The position numbers were made by a program, and so were the translations under genes. 35,489 nt of DNA from an uncultured Flavobacteriaceae bacterium (GTDB lineage Bacteria; Bacteroidota; Bacteroidia; Flavobacteriales; Flavobacteriaceae). How positions within the stretch are numbered: position 1 is the stretch's first letter; every line of letters begins with the position of its first letter. Under the pieces are notes generated by a model that had not been told where the DNA came from, ran no database searches, and worked only from the letters and a program-made list of their open reading frames with translations. Positions 758-35,489 of this stretch are shown here, piece by piece. The stretch is taken from the NCBI GenBank assembly GCA_913020075.1, contig CAJWAE010000013.1, positions 1 through 35,489 on the forward strand, in the 5' to 3' direction.

Positions 758-3187
758 TTAAATTTTGTATTGTAATGTTATATAATATGTTTTTGGGGCA
801 GCAGGAATTATCCCTGGGCCAGGGTATCCTGTGGCTCGTCTTGTAAAATACTTTGTATTTAACAGATTATTAACTCCAGCTTCAATTCTAAAACGTCTAA
901 ACAAAAAAGATGAAGAAAAATCCATAATTTTATAGGAAGGAATAAGACCTATTAGACCACTTAAATTACCCTCTACAGCATTTGATGAATCCGTAAACTG
1001 ACTTGATAAATAACTATATTGCAGATTCATTAAAAGGTTCTTATATCCAAACTTAAGACCTGTTTTCAAATTTTGATTAGGAACAAATTCTACTTTTTTT
1101 CCTTTTACCCCTGATTCTTTTGATCGTGTATATTTAGAATCAATTATTGAGAAGTTTATGAAATAATTCAATACAATTGGAGAATTAGGTTTTGAAATAA
1201 GAGGCTTAAGATTAAAGTCTAATAATGATTCTACACCATAAATTTGTGCATCTCCAACATTACCCCTTTCACTTTTTATATTACCATCAGGAAGAACTCT
1301 TTGAATAAATCCAATACGATTATTATAGTTTAAATTAAAAAAGCTTAAATCAAAAGATAAAAAGTCTTTTAAAACACCTCTAAACCCAATATCAGAAGTG
1401 AATCCTTTCTCGTCAGATATGTTTGGATTTATTATATAGGAAGGGTTAAAAATACTAATATCAGCAAACGTAACAGACCTGTAATTTTGAGAGATATTTA
1501 AATATGCTTCTAAAGAAGGTGAGATCTTATGGCTCGTGCCTATACCAGCTAAAACGAAAACTCTTTTTCGAATATCATTTTCAAGAACACTTTGATCAAA
1601 AATAACATTTCCAGCTCCATCTCGATTTATTCTTTTATAAGTTCCGTCACTTTGTGTTTTTATATATTCAAATCTAACACCAGGGGTTAATGAAAAGCGA
1701 TCATTTAAATAAAAAATATTTTCTGAAAAAAGAGAGATATTCTCATTAGGGTATTCATACGAAGATTGAAAATTATAAAACGGGAATAAATCTTTTTTAA
1801 ATAAGAAATTTGCGTCTTTTCCAGAAGAACCTGGGCCTTGTTCAGATGTATTATATGATTTATAATATTTTGACCCAACTAATAAAACTGATTTTTTATT
1901 TAAAAAGGAATAATTTTTCACCCAACGCCCCTCTAAACCGAAATTATTGAAATCACCTTTGATAAGATCTCTTTCCGAAAGGGGATCTTCTTGACTGACT
2001 CGATTACTTCTAAATCCAAGAGAATTTCGTGTTGCATCCAAGCCAAAAAAGTTAAAACTAAGTTTAGAATTATTTAAAAATTCATGCTCAAATTTGACAC
2101 TGTATAGCAACCAATCCAAGCTAAACCAATTTCTGGAACGATTACTTTGAGAGAAATCTTCTGAAAACATAGCATCTGTTAATCCGCCAGCTTGTTGAGC
2201 AAGATAATTCAAATAAGTTATTTCAGCAGAAACTTTAGTTTTTTCACTTAATTGATATCCAATATTTAAAAAGTAATTTGAAGAAACAAATTTGGAATTT
2301 GCTCTAAATCCATCTCCTTTTTTCATATTAAAAAAAGTGAGATAGCTCCATTTTCCAATAGTTCCATTTGCTTCTGTGTAATTAGTAAATAGATTGTTTG
2401 AGCCGATTGTATTTCTTGTTTTTAGCTCAAAGGGTTTTTCCAGATTTGCCTCACGAAAAATAAAATTTACCAACCCTCCAAATTGAGTTCCATATTGTAA
2501 TGAAGCCGCTCCTCTTAGTATTTGAATTTCACTTAGTGCTTCTGCAGGTGGAGTATAATAGCTTTCAGGATATCCTAAAACATCAGCACTAATATCATAT
2601 CCATTTTGGCGAGTATTAAAATTTGAGGTTCTGTTTGGATCCAAACCTCTGCCTCCTATATGAAGTTGAAGACCAGCATCATCATTTTGATAGATATTTA
2701 AACCTGCTACTTGACTATAAACTTGTCTTGAATTATTTGTAGCAAGGTTTGCCATAGATTGTTCTATATTTATTACTTCATTTTTTTTTCCTGCATATAT
2801 AGATGTTCCCTTGTAGTCTTCAAGGCGAGTTAATTCAAATTTTCTTTTTTTTCGAGCATTTATAATTACTTCTGATAAATTTTGAATTTGATTTGGAAAT
2901 TCAATAACAACTTTGTAAACTCCTTTAAATGAATAAGTTTTTTCAATAATAGGAAAGCTATTGGCAACAAAGAATAATGTATTTTTTTCTTTTTTTAGAT
3001 TTAACTCAAAGTATTCCCCAAAATTTATCGAAGTGAGATAGCCCAAATTTTTCTCATAAATTTCTATTACTTCTTTTTCATCAAATGAACCAGAAACAAT
3101 AGCTTTTCCTTTGAGTATGTTCTGACCCAATGAAATAAACGGAATAGCCCATAAAATAAAACCGTTAAAAACCTTTAATCTCATCAT
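758..3187 (-). CDS. TonB-dependent outer-membrane receptor (FecA/siderophore type)
   Basis: The 809-residue protein starts with a signal peptide ending near LGQN (residues 1-22), followed by a short beta domain like the carboxypeptidase-regulatory-like N-domains of Bacteroidota receptors (about 23-105). A plug domain follows, with the landmarks IQILRGAASLQYGTQ and GGLVNFI (about 145-250), and then a 22-strand-type barrel running to an aromatic-rich end (YYITLQYKI). It should import a metal chelate or haem across the outer membrane using TonB energy. Its ATG overlaps the upstream HTTM gene by 23 bp, which implies translational coupling. With imelysin and DUF4856 lipoproteins in the same operon, iron or haem is the likely cargo. 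The substrate cannot be read from the sequence. Confidence 0.93.
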   Translation of the reverse strand: MMRLKVFNGFILWAIPFISLGQNILKGKAIVSGSFDEKEVIEIYEKNLGYLTSINFGEYFELNLKKEKNTLFFVANSFPIIEKTYSFKGVYKVVIEFPNQIQNLSEVIINARKKRKFELTRLEDYKGTSIYAGKKNEVINIEQSMANLATNNSRQVYSQVAGLNIYQNDDAGLQLHIGGRGLDPNRTSNFNTRQNGYDISADVLGYPESYYTPPAEALSEIQILRGAASLQYGTQFGGLVNFIFREANLEKPFELKTRNTIGSNNLFTNYTEANGTIGKWSYLTFFNMKKGDGFRANSKFVSSNYFLNIGYQLSEKTKVSAEITYLNYLAQQAGGLTDAMFSEDFSQSNRSRNWFSLDWLLYSVKFEHEFLNNSKLSFNFFGLDATRNSLGFRSNRVSQEDPLSERDLIKGDFNNFGLEGRWVKNYSFLNKKSVLLVGSKYYKSYNTSEQGPGSSGKDANFLFKKDLFPFYNFQSSYEYPNENISLFSENIFYLNDRFSLTPGVRFEYIKTQSDGTYKRINRDGAGNVIFDQSVLENDIRKRVFVLAGIGTSHKISPSLEAYLNISQNYRSVTFADISIFNPSYIINPNISDEKGFTSDIGFRGVLKDFLSFDLSFFNLNYNNRIGFIQRVLPDGNIKSERGNVGDAQIYGVESLLDFNLKPLISKPNSPIVLNYFINFSIIDSKYTRSKESGVKGKKVEFVPNQNLKTGLKFGYKNLLMNLQYSYLSSQFTDSSNAVEGNLSGLIGLIPSYKIMDFSSSFLFRRFRIEAGVNNLLNTKYFTRRATGYPGPGIIPAAPKTYYITLQYKI

Positions 3188-4535
3188 TTAGAGGTAATAC
3201 CCATTTTTTATGTTTAAATGACTCATTTTTCTTATACAAATCAACTTTATTATCTATAAATCTTTTACTAGAACGTCCATTAAGGCCAACATAACTATCT
3301 GCAAAAACCTGAATATTTTTATGCCCTTGACCTTTAAAATGGTCACCTAAATAGTGTGCATATTCTATTATGAAATCAGGTTGAAAGCTCATTTGCTTTT
3401 CTTGAAAAGCAGTTAAAAAGTCTGAATTTTCAACATAAAATGCCTTTTTAGATATACTATCTATTATTTTGAAATTGGTGTACCCTTTTTTTTCGATTAA
3501 CATTACACGCCAAGAAAATCGATAACCCTGTTCATTCCAAAAAAGCTCTCCGGGATAAAGCATATATCTGAACGGGAATAATAATTGAAAAATAAAAAAA
3601 GGTATTAAAAGATATTTCAAATAATATTGTGATCGATTTGTTTTGAATTGAATAATCTTTATTGTTTCTATTTTTGGAAGTGACTGTCTGATGTACTTTA
3701 AGAAGATATTAATAACATTTATAATTTTATGATGTAGAGAGGAATCAAAAAATATAAATGCGCTAAAAATCATAATATAAGGGAACATACCTATTGGGAA
3801 AAGAGCTTTGGTAAGTAGGTGAAAAATTACTACAAGAATAAATCCAATTAATCTAGTTTTTCTATTTATAAGAAGAAAAGGAATTGCTAAATCATAAATC
3901 ATACCTCCCCAGCTCATTAGGTAATGAATCCATTTTAATTGCAGAATTGAACCAATCAGAGGTAAGTCGTATTTTGATGGAAGCCACATTGACAAAGGCA
4001 TAGCTTTTAGTATCCAATCAGAATTTATTTTTGCTAAACCGGAATAAAAATAAATTATACAGATAAGCAGCTTTATACTATCAACAGTCCATTTAGGAAT
4101 TTTTTCACATGTTGTCTGACTCAAATAATTATCTAATGAATAAAATCTATTTGCAGGTAAAAAACACATTAAAAAAGAAAGAATACTTATAAAATAGTAA
4201 TGATTTAAATAAGTAGTTTTATCAATTAACTCAATATAAGTAAAACTAACAAAAAAGATTATTATTGATATTCTGTACTTTAGTCCCAATGCGATAAATA
4301 ATGAAGATAAGGCACAGATAATAAATAAAAGATAAGTTGAATCACCAAGACTTTGAATCCAATCAAAACCAAAATATTTGAAATGAAATTTGGGATCTAT
4401 ATATAAAGTTTTTATCCAGCCTTTACTCCAAAAACGAGCTAAGCTATAAAACATAAGAAGTCCAAACATGATTCGAAAAACGGCAAGTTTGGAAGAATCA
4501 GTATAGTCGTTTTCTAAATATGTTTTTAAATTCAT
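3165..4535 (-). CDS. HTTM-domain, vitamin K-dependent gamma-carboxylase-like membrane protein
   Basis: The 456-residue protein has an N-terminal HTTM domain (about 1-310) with several hydrophobic helices and the family landmarks LAVFRIMFGLLMF, FYSGLAKIN and WLP. A soluble C-terminal part resembles the second half of vitamin K-dependent gamma-glutamyl carboxylase: FSWRVMLIEKKG, then LTAFQEKQM with PDFI and a YAHYL helix, then GLNGR at 417-421 and IDNKVDL. In animals this family carboxylates Glu side chains to Gla using reduced vitamin K, CO2 and O2. Bacterial homologues are mostly uncharacterised. The start is 5 bp after the imelysin stop, and the end overlaps the TonB receptor start, so it is firmly inside the operon. 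Carboxylase activity is inference; domain identity is confident. Confidence 0.9.
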   Translation of the reverse strand: MNLKTYLENDYTDSSKLAVFRIMFGLLMFYSLARFWSKGWIKTLYIDPKFHFKYFGFDWIQSLGDSTYLLFIICALSSLFIALGLKYRISIIIFFVSFTYIELIDKTTYLNHYYFISILSFLMCFLPANRFYSLDNYLSQTTCEKIPKWTVDSIKLLICIIYFYSGLAKINSDWILKAMPLSMWLPSKYDLPLIGSILQLKWIHYLMSWGGMIYDLAIPFLLINRKTRLIGFILVVIFHLLTKALFPIGMFPYIMIFSAFIFFDSSLHHKIINVINIFLKYIRQSLPKIETIKIIQFKTNRSQYYLKYLLIPFFIFQLLFPFRYMLYPGELFWNEQGYRFSWRVMLIEKKGYTNFKIIDSISKKAFYVENSDFLTAFQEKQMSFQPDFIIEYAHYLGDHFKGQGHKNIQVFADSYVGLNGRSSKRFIDNKVDLYKKNESFKHKKWVLPLNDEIKGF

Positions 4536-4540
4536 GAGAA

Positions 4541-5713
4541 TTAGTCACCATCTGCATCGGCGTAATCAACATTTATGTTCAAAGTTTGAAGCATATCTAC
4601 TTTTAAAAGAACTACAACTGCTTGTATGCTGTCGTAGGTGATTAACATTGCAGTATTATCATTATTAATTTGAGTAACAAAACTATCGCTTAGTTCATTA
4701 ACTTTCTCAACAGCCAAAGCTAATTTAGACAAAATATCATCACCTAAACCCACATTGTTTGCATCAGTATTTAAATGTGATAAATAAGCTTGAAAACTCT
4801 TACCTATTAAAGATTCGTTTTCAAAAGCATTTCCAACAAAAAAGTTTTTGACAGCATCTAAGGACTCAAGTGCTAAAACTTTAGAAAAAGATCTACTATA
4901 ATATCCCTCAACTTTATTAGGAAGCTTATTAACTGAAAAAACACCAGCAGGAATACCAAATTTGTTAGCTCGTAAGCCTTTTTCAAAATAATAAATAAAG
5001 TCATTAGACAGCTTATTAATACTTGAAGTAGCTGTATTTTCTGAAGAAGCAACAAATTCGTCTCTGAAAGTTTGCCAGTCTTCGTAAACTATAGTCGACT
5101 TAGAAATCATTTTATCTATTAAGTCGATTAGGTATTTATAATGATTACTATCCACAACTTGATATTTCTCAAGTATTTCATCATCATTTATTCCTATTCC
5201 ATATAACATGAAGTCTAAAGCAGGAAATCCTTGAGTAGCATAATTATTGGGATTTTCTAAGTCATATTCACCTAAATTTATATTGGTTGTTATCCTATCT
5301 TCGTTTACAGGATAAACATTCATATGGGATAAAAAATATATTTCTTCAGCTTTTCCGACATTAAACATCTCGACATGTTGCCATGTTTTGTATGCCAATA
5401 ACCATTTTTCTCTAATTACTGAAAGTTTCTCTTGTGTAGCATTTTCATTTAATTCAATAATTTGCTCTCTTAAAATAGCTAAATCGGCTGTAAGTTTTTT
5501 ATAACTAGGAACAATAATACTATCTGCCCAAAAAGCTAGCATTTCTTCTCTATTGAAAGAAATAGTGACAGATTCATTATTTTGTGTAGTATTTTTTGAT
5601 ATTAAGCTTTCAGTAGGATCAATTGAATTGACTTCCTCAGACTGGTCATCCTCGGATGAACAAGAAAAAGCAATAATAAATAGTGTTAGGCAAAAGGCTA
5701 CATTTTTAAGCAT
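4541..5713 (-). CDS. Imelysin-family lipoprotein (iron-associated, periplasmic or surface)
   Basis: The 390-residue protein has a lipobox (FSC, Cys18) followed by an acidic linker rich in Asp and Glu (about 20-50). The imelysin-type helical fold then shows WQHVEMFNVG (111-120) and TQGFPALDFMLYG (160-172). The classical GxHxxE metal motif of IrpA/imelysin is replaced here by G-F-P-A-L-D, so the His and Glu are missing, as I believe is common in the Bacteroidota branch. The C-terminus is very acidic (VDYADADGD). Imelysins are linked to iron uptake, and the neighbours (TonB receptor, DUF4856) agree. The gene lies 104 bp after DUF4856, separated by an inverted repeat, and 5 bp before the HTTM gene. 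It is probably an accessory binding protein for the receptor, with an unknown ligand. Confidence 0.9.
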   Translation of the reverse strand: MLKNVAFCLTLFIIAFSCSSEDDQSEEVNSIDPTESLISKNTTQNNESVTISFNREEMLAFWADSIIVPSYKKLTADLAILREQIIELNENATQEKLSVIREKWLLAYKTWQHVEMFNVGKAEEIYFLSHMNVYPVNEDRITTNINLGEYDLENPNNYATQGFPALDFMLYGIGINDDEILEKYQVVDSNHYKYLIDLIDKMISKSTIVYEDWQTFRDEFVASSENTATSSINKLSNDFIYYFEKGLRANKFGIPAGVFSVNKLPNKVEGYYSRSFSKVLALESLDAVKNFFVGNAFENESLIGKSFQAYLSHLNTDANNVGLGDDILSKLALAVEKVNELSDSFVTQINNDNTAMLITYDSIQAVVVLLKVDMLQTLNINVDYADADGD

Positions 5714-32562: not shown

Positions 32563-34764
32563 ATGAAAAAAGGTTTATTCTCAATTTTGGCAAGTGCACT
32601 CTTAGTAGTGGGATGTCAAAATTACGACGATCAGTTTGATAACCTAGAAACACAAATCAATGCACTTGCTTCTGTAGTTGCTGGTTTGTCTCAGGTTCAA
32701 TCTGATATTTCTGCCCTATCAAACACAGTTGCTTCATTGCAAACTAGTGTTGCTAGCTCTGCAACAGGAGATGCTGCATTAGCTGACGGGTTAGCAGACT
32801 TAGCAACATCTGTAGCTGCTGTACAAGAAAGTACTGCTTCTGCTGCTAGTTCTGCAGATGTTCAAGCTATTACTGATGCTGTTTCTGCAAATCAAGCTGA
32901 TTTAGCTGAGTTATTAGCTAATTCTTCTGTATTTTCAGGAGACGTTAATATTACTTCACCTGCAACTCTTGCTGCTTTTAAAGCAATGGGCTCCAGTCTT
33001 GCAATTGTAAATGGTAATGTAAATATTGCTACTACTGCTGATATGGTTCATGCAGATGTTCAGGCTGTTGTAGATGAAATTTTAACAGTTACTAAAGATT
33101 TCAAATACACATCTCATGCATCAGCATATACTGAAACAACGTTTAACAAATTATCTGGAGTTGTTACATTAACTCTCAAACAAGGTGGTGGTTATAAAGC
33201 TCAAACTTTAGCTTCTGCAACTAATATTATTTTAGATGACACATGGAAGAGTACAGTTCTTATCGTTGACTTTAGAGCTTTAACTAGTGTTACTAATCTT
33301 AATAATGAAAGTCAAGCTTCTGGTTATTTGAAATTCGACAAAGCAACTGAAATGCACTTAACTAAATTGGCTTTATATCCTGGTAGTCTTAATCTTCAAG
33401 TTAAAAAAGGTGGTGTTGTTGACCTTTCTGCTTTTGATGATTTAAATGCTGCAGGTACTGCTGTTGGTTCTAGTTTTGCATTCAGTATTGATGGACCAGC
33501 TTCTGTTGCTCTATCTACTGTTTCAGACGGAACAATCACACTTGCAAATGTTGGAACTGCAACTATTTCTGGATTTATCGGAAACACTGTTGTAGGAACT
33601 GGAGTTGATAACTTAACTGTTACAGGTGCTGTTAGTATAGATCTTACTAATGCTACAGATTTAGCATCAGTTAACATTACAGGTGCAAAAGATTCTGACC
33701 CAGTAACTCTTGCTGCTATGACTGCTGCTCAAACTTTAGCTAACGTTGGTCCTGCCATTACTCTTAATTCTGGTGACTTAATAACAGCTACAATTGCAGG
33801 TTTTACAGGTGCAATTTCATCTGGTGTTGCTCAGACTAACTTAGAAACTTTAACTATATCTGCGAATACAGGTACTAATGGTTTAACAGTTAGTGGTAAT
33901 AATGACTTAACTTCATTAGTAGTTACTGGTGCTACAATTGGCGATGTAAGTGTAACAAACAATACTGACTTAGAAACTGTAACTTTTGATCATACTACTT
34001 CAGTAGCTACCGCATCTAAAGCAGCAATAGTCACTATTACAGGAAACACTAATTTGACTAATCTTGTTTGGAGTGCTGATGATGTTAAGACTCTTGCTGT
34101 AACAGGAAACACTGCATTAGCAGTGGTTAATTTTGCTGGTTTGAAGGATATGGGTACATCTGCTTCAGGTGCTATAACAGTTAAAACAAATGCTCTTGTT
34201 GCTAGTTCATTCAAAGACGCATTTGATGCTACAGCTGCTTCAGGTGCTGTTCAGGCAGATACAGGTGCATTCGTAACAGGTTCTGGTATGGCGAGTATGA
34301 AAATATTCTTGACAGCTGTATTAGCATCTTCAACTAGTGATGTTGCAGTTTATTTTGATACTCTTGAACTAGTATCAACTCAAGCATCAGCTGGTGCAGT
34401 TTATACAGAAAATTCTTCTTATACAAATAGTGTTACTGGAAATACAAGTAATGCTTATGCATACCAAACAGCTCAAGTTCTTGCTTCTGGTCCAACAGTA
34501 AGAGAATCAAAAACATATCAGGCTACTGTTGCTTTTAATGCTTTACATGCACCATTAGCAGGTGCTAATGGTGAAGGTTTTACTATGGTATATGGAGGTG
34601 TAAGTAAATTATTTAGTTATACAACTGCTGACACTTCATTGACTGGATTAATCAATACTATAAATACTGCAACAGATTATGGAACAGGGATAACTTTAAC
34701 TGCTGCTCTTGATGGTGATCACAGATCACTTCAGACGATAGTTTATACTGATAGTAGTGGTGCT
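32563..34764 (+). CDS. Large surface lipoprotein with coiled coil and beta-repeat domain (3' end lost at contig join)
   Basis: At least 734 residues are present. The lipoprotein signal MKKGLFSILASALLVVGC (Cys18) is followed by a heptad-rich coiled coil (about 24-115) and a long Thr/Ala/Val-rich part with repeats such as GNVNI, NLTVTGAV, LTSLVVTGATIGDVSVTNN and TGNTNLTNLVW, which look like short beta-helix turns. Codons are strongly biased to GCT, ACT and GTT compared with neighbours, as in a highly expressed gene. The reading frame continues to a stop at 34845, but the last 27 or so codons (GCC AVAEPP...) come from unrelated GC-rich DNA, so the true C-terminus is missing. It is probably an abundant surface or adhesive protein. 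It is expressed from a sigma-54 promoter. Confidence 0.8.
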
Positions 34765-34775
34765 GCTGCGTCTGC
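34758..34775. other. Chimeric junction: bacterial to eukaryotic-like DNA
   Basis: Base composition changes abruptly from AT-rich to GC-rich within about 20 bases, in the middle of the lipoprotein gene. The switch occurs at a GCTGCTGC run that exists in the bacterial codons and could act as overlap in assembly. From here to the end the sequence codes for a eukaryotic-type protein. No insertion sequence, target duplication or integrase lies nearby. Confidence 0.85.
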
Positions 34776-35489
34776 CGGCTGTTGCGCTGTGGCTGAGCCA
34801 CCACGCTGGCGCGTGCGATGCTTCGCCGTGTTGTTTGGCTTGTAAGCTTTGGCGCTCTCGGGAAGCTTTCGGGCAACGACCAGCCGCCGTTCCCGCGCTC
34901 GTTGTGAGCTTCCGCGACTTTCCGGGGCTTGAGCTTTTTGGCGACGGTTCGCAGCATGACGTGGCGGAGTTCTGTGGCTGTCTGCTCGACGCATTGCGCG
35001 ATCGCGAGGTTGCAGCGGAACGTTTTGCGCATTGGACCGGTGTTGTCTTGGGCGCTGCCAAGGTTTCGCACGTAGAACGCCTCTTCGGCTTCGTGCTCGA
35101 GCAGCGCAGCCGCTGCCACGCCTGTGGCGACTCCGCGGCGACGGTCGTGCGGCACGATTGCGATCGTTTGTTGCGCCTGCCCGTGCCGGTTTCCAAGGAG
35201 CGAGACCGCGTGTGGACCACGACGGAGTTGTACTACGCGCGGGCCGCGCCGTCGGAGGCGCAGCTGGACTGTCACAGGTGCGGCTCGCGGACGGCGCATC
35301 GCGAGCAAACGCACTTGCTAACGCAGCCCAATGTGCTGCTGTTGTTGGTTCAGCGGCGGAATCAAGGCGGCACGCGGTTCTCGCGTCACGCCGTGCAGCC
35401 GGAAGCGGTGCTGACTTTGCCAGGGCATGATCGTTACGAGCTCGCTGCCGTTGTCTACCACCAGGGGCCCGGCGCGGAGAGCGGACACT
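34763..35489 (+). CDS. Fragment of a eukaryotic ubiquitin-specific protease (USP, peptidase C19)
   Basis: One frame is open for the full 727 bases with no ATG and no stop, so it is internal to a gene. It shows the USP order of motifs: a Cys-rich start (CCLACKL), then FGDGSQHDVAEFCGCLLDAL (Gln/His box helix, from 34934), a zinc-ribbon with CxxC at 35114-35125 and CxxC at 35270-35281, a LLTQPNVLLLLVQRR strand corresponding to the family's 'P-x-V-L-x-x-x-x-R-F', and RYELAAVVYHQGPGAESGH with the catalytic His at 35486-35488 as the last full codon. The catalytic Cys box would lie upstream of the join. USPs remove ubiquitin from proteins in eukaryotes and have no place in Flavobacteria. The source is probably a GC-rich protist or alga. 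Confidence 0.85.
   Translation, partial: MLRLPAVALWLSHHAGACDASPCCLACKLWRSREAFGQRPAAVPALVVSFRDFPGLELFGDGSQHDVAEFCGCLLDALRDREVAAERFAHWTGVVLGAAKVSHVERLFGFVLEQRSRCHACGDSAATVVRHDCDRLLRLPVPVSKERDRVWTTTELYYARAAPSEAQLDCHRCGSRTAHREQTHLLTQPNVLLLLVQRRNQGGTRFSRHAVQPEAVLTLPGHDRYELAAVVYHQGPGAESGH

Follow-up and report, generated by a model that had tools for sequence, protein, structure and literature searches.

A eukaryotic-type ubiquitin protease gene fragment at the end of a flavobacterial contig is most likely a technical chimera

The end of a contig in the draft genome of an uncultured Flavobacteriaceae bacterium is, with a probability of about 0.96, chimeric: a piece of a eukaryotic-type ubiquitin-specific protease (USP) gene has been joined to the bacterial contig by a technical error. 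The window, i.e., the whole stretch of DNA that was analysed, is the entire contig C13 of 35,489 bases, and its final base is the contig end. We infer that the join is technical and not biological because the Pfam domain UCH was not found in the relatives searched, a bacterial lipoprotein-like gene is cut short, and foreign DNA lies at other ends; this last, genome-wide observation within the same draft genome is the strongest support. The USP piece is thus most likely artefactual, and no new gene of the bacterium need be assumed. The draft genome consists of 102 contigs (1.70 Mb) and is rated 85.6% complete and 3.5% contaminated, figures that are not alarming, which speaks against a chimera, and that give no flag of the foreign contig end.

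Results

The terminal part of the window (34,770-35,489, plus strand; G+C 0.652) carries the eukaryotic-type USP gene fragment, read in a frame that is open throughout 34,760-35,488. The Pfam UCH profile (PF00443) matches this frame with an E value of 2.4e-10 and 40.9 bits, above the curated cut-off of 23.9 bits, with residues 60-243 aligned to positions 83-214 of the 254 in the profile. A PDB search returned two matches, the better one to USP35 (5txk; E 3.5e-4), colinear over residues 38-243 up to the His box, and the second to USP1 (E 0.14). The preliminary description had read USP landmarks in order up to the contig end, and the Pfam match and the colinearity with USP35 bear this out: on the plus strand follow QHDVAEF (34,952-34,972), the two CxxC pairs of the finger zinc ribbon, CHAC (35,114-35,125) and CHRC (35,270-35,281), then YELAAVV (35,435-35,455) and, as the last complete codons, SGH (35,480-35,488). 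The stretch YELAAVVYHQGPGAESGH (35,435-35,488) constitutes the His box and aligns where the match to USP35 ends. No catalytic Cys box was found in the USP frame: the profile match begins only at position 83, and a search with two Cys-box-like patterns gave no match. The Cys box is missing through truncation at the join, and the USP match, which has no domain start, terminates at the His box together with the contig.

GC-rich DNA leaves long frames open, and the likeness to a USP might be a chance effect of such a frame. One minus-strand frame of the GC-rich segment is open as well, and when the bases of the segment were shuffled, an open forward frame survived in 20 of 2000 trials. The open frame alone is weak evidence in DNA this rich in G+C; the profile match is decisive. 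Against a chance origin stand the Pfam E value, the colinear USP35 match and the order of the landmarks, so that chance similarity, vanishingly improbable, was rejected on the Pfam and PDB matches. The preliminary description took the intron-free frame to suit a compact or intron-poor eukaryote, which may be so, although a single exon can span 0.7 kb.

The composition of the window changes abruptly, from a G+C content of 0.340 over 1-34,750 to 0.652 over 34,768-35,489, and the sharp switch from AT-rich bacterial to GC-rich DNA that had been noted from the sequence was thus confirmed. The best single change point is 34,759, on a plateau of near-equal scores from 34,753 to 34,765. Combining this plateau with the sequence common to the relative L015, we place the join zone, TGGTGCTGCTGC, at 34,758-34,769 on the plus strand, within which the exact breakpoint is not resolvable. 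The DNA of L015 has the same TGGTGCTGCTGC and then diverges from the window; at the protein level the window reads YTDSSGAAAS where L015 has YTYSNGAAATTSS, and then changes. Since L015 has the word before diverging, TGGTGCTGCTGC belongs to the bacterial side and marks where the bacterial part ends. The GCTGCTGC overlap proposed earlier as the site of joining may be a candidate, its word being established for the bacterial side alone. A 30-mer spanning the join had no exact match in genome_contigs or viral_contigs, collections from which the genome itself is possibly left out.

Upstream of the join lies the 5' part of a bacterial gene (32,563-34,769, plus strand), which starts with MKKGLFSILASALLVVGC, has homologs in the genus and, judged by eye, encodes a putative lipoprotein. 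Its frame runs on from 32,563 to a stop at 34,843-34,845 and differs from that of the USP, hence no fusion protein is encoded and the junction of the two genes exists solely at the DNA level. Of the earlier claim that the USP piece is fused to a flavobacterial gene, the junction in DNA therefore stands, and a protein fusion is rejected on the frame mismatch and the stop. Of the 37 other genomes of the genus, 16 have a homolog of the lipoprotein. L005 encodes it in a frame of 980 aa that extends beyond the join position, and the L015 copy, which lacks its 5' end, continues for 229 residues beyond it; both run on in bacterial sequence and finish in a GWL-type C terminus. As the copies of relatives extend beyond the join position, the window gene is truncated there. 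A search of the rest of the genome for the missing C-terminal part, with the L015 tail as query, gave no match, a result that says little in so divergent a family.

The lipoprotein family is divergent, and its gene is cut by a contig end in L007, L012, L014, L015 and L016. Among the 16 other genomes that have a match, there are five in which it comes within 10 bases of a contig end. The gene therefore seems hard to assemble, and assemblies tend to break inside it, a point in favour of a chimeric end here.

The UCH domain was found in one of 38 genomes of the genus and in one of 395 genomes of the phylum, on this contig both times; it is thus absent from the 37 other genus genomes and the 394 other phylum genomes searched, and it was found in none of 14 control genomes. 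Within its own genome it occurs a single time, on this contig. The join is accordingly absent from the relatives searched: no UCH was found in the 37 genomes, and in L005 and L015 the lipoprotein gene continues. A literature search on deubiquitinases and transfer to bacteria found nothing.

USP-type genes occur in giant viruses and some intracellular bacteria, and the GC-rich piece might have come from such a virus or from another, USP-bearing bacterium; the contig would still be a chimera, with a different donor. The donor searches covered prokaryotic or viral collections. A pattern search of IMG/VR gave no match, and in the GTDB contigs 40 stretches match a peptide pattern and none encodes a relative, both searches reaching close relatives only; among phages and plasmids no related sequence was found at the protein or the DNA level. 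These results, together with the eukaryotic look of the Cys-rich pieces on contigs C65 and C12 described below, which would fit a eukaryote in the sample, make a viral or bacterial donor improbable.

A technical join predicts foreign DNA at other contig ends too. We took 300-base terminal stretches from the starts of 101 contigs and the ends of 80 (183 of 204 ends when both ends of C13 are counted) and rated them by a third-order Markov score, for which the bacterial part of the window served as training set. Eight of the 181 terminal stretches scored lower than any of 688 interior windows, and three gave a flat, uninformative score; in a comparison set of inner stretches 6 of 362 fell below that minimum, a figure partly due to the extended foreign pieces on C12 and C65 themselves. 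Two of the eight outlier ends are clear, namely the start of C65 and the end of C12, so that foreign pieces are present at other ends of the same assembly.

The start of C65 (L204, G000:C65) carries a Cys-rich frame of 1.4 kb at 3-1379 with four stretches matching PF07699 (Ephrin_rec_like, E 1.9e-16); beyond 1.4 kb the contig is AT-rich and its frames look bacterial by eye. The end of C12 carries about 1.7 kb of GC-richer DNA with a Cys-rich open frame that matches PF07699 only at E 0.016 and has stretches that look transmembrane by eye. We presume both Cys-rich pieces to be protist-like. Significant eukaryotic-type Pfam matches are confined to the window end and C65, and the foreign reading of C12 draws on its composition, a truncated gene and the weak match to PF07699. 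The latter lies at the nqrC-like locus (L205, G000:C12:32495-36494; 1617-3311, minus strand), where the GC-richer foreign piece cuts the gene and replaces its N terminus, and the FMN-binding domain is retained (FMN_bind PF04205, E 2.1e-15). We take this FMN_bind gene to be nqrC; nqrD/E-like frames adjoin it. In five relatives (L210-L214) about 36 residues precede the motif (S/A)NVRKEKMQNIL, and the C12 match starts only there. The three foreign pieces differ in G+C (0.65 at the window end, mostly 0.5-0.6 on C12 and 0.44-0.49 on C65) and therefore need not share one donor.

A second nqrC-like copy, which has its N terminus and is cut by the contig end, lies at the end of C5 (L048) and is 74.8% identical to the C12 copy over 139 aa. 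Elsewhere in the genus, 34 genomes have one match each and three have none. Given this second copy, against one per genome in the genus, the bin seems to mix DNA of more than one related bacterium.

Horizontal transfer would mean that all or part of a USP gene passed from a eukaryote to the bacterium and was inserted in its lipoprotein gene. The assembly is contiguous over the join and the USP homology is real, as this reading requires. The piece, however, is without the Cys box and out of frame, retains 65% G+C and terminates with the contig; the search of the 37 other genus genomes revealed no UCH; and foreign DNA lies at other contig ends, once within the nqrC-like gene. Out-of-frame pieces of unrelated genes that recur at contig tips and interrupt a lipoprotein gene and an nqrC-like gene are what is expected of chimeric molecules or assembly errors and not of horizontal transfer, which we regard as very unlikely. 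We give hardly any credence to the related idea that the eukaryotic pieces (USP and Cys-rich, receptor-like) were gained from a cohabiting protist, with a surface gene and a respiratory gene as the sites of insertion.

Six other contig ends are outliers by the Markov score. The start of C35 (L077; 3-521, minus strand) has 0.5-0.7 kb of GC-richer DNA with a 173-aa frame; neither of the two frames at this outlier end has a Pfam match, and it is possibly a piece of another bacterium. At the start of C17 (L039; 1-507, minus strand) an epimerase-family fragment of higher G+C adjoins AT-rich sequence. The outlier end of C25 has two frames, neither with a Pfam match; judged by eye, a frame at about 4150-5000 (L206) resembles the beginning of a glycoside hydrolase of family 3 and seems to pass into unrelated sequence, a possible further join. 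The remaining outlier ends are the starts of C23 and C76 and the end of C8. Ribosomal RNA as the explanation of five GC-richer stretches (L055, L077, L065, L039 and L079) was rejected, as a search against Rfam gave no match for any of them.

Discussion

We propose that the putative lipoprotein gene was cut at or near TGGTGCTGCTGC and that the cut gene was joined to an unrelated eukaryotic-type USP piece in library preparation, amplification or assembly, with the assembly running out 0.7 kb past the join. A word of about 12 bases is shorter than the k-mers usual in short-read assemblers. If the shared word is of about 12 bases only, a chimeric molecule or read carried into a low-coverage contig tip would therefore be a slightly better fit than an error of the assembly graph alone. 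The preliminary description had arrived at an assembly or amplification chimera from the letters of the window, with genuine horizontal transfer as the less likely alternative. The chimera reading is now supported by the distribution of UCH, the truncated lipoprotein gene and the foreign ends of C65 and C12, and the low rank given to transfer holds for a piece that is truncated, out of frame and not found in the relatives searched.

The finding carries a warning, since databases could come to list such a piece as a deubiquitinase of bacteria or as a case of transfer from a eukaryote to a bacterium. If genuine, the join would represent a recent cross-domain transfer; the evidence points firmly against this.

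Compared with eukaryotic USPs (PF00443; USP35, 5txk), the fragment shares the QHDVAEF helix, the two finger CxxC pairs and YELxAVV...SGH in the same order. In contrast to them, it comprises the middle of the domain only, without the Cys box and with nothing beyond the His box, and its place is the tip of a bacterial contig, where its frame differs from that of the adjacent gene. Draft and metagenome-assembled genomes are known to contain chimeric contigs, the error class that GUNC (PMC8201837) addresses. Like these, C13 joins genes of unrelated lineages end to end, its composition switches abruptly close to the contig end, and nothing distinguishes it from them; here the partner is eukaryotic-type, and several ends of one genome are affected.
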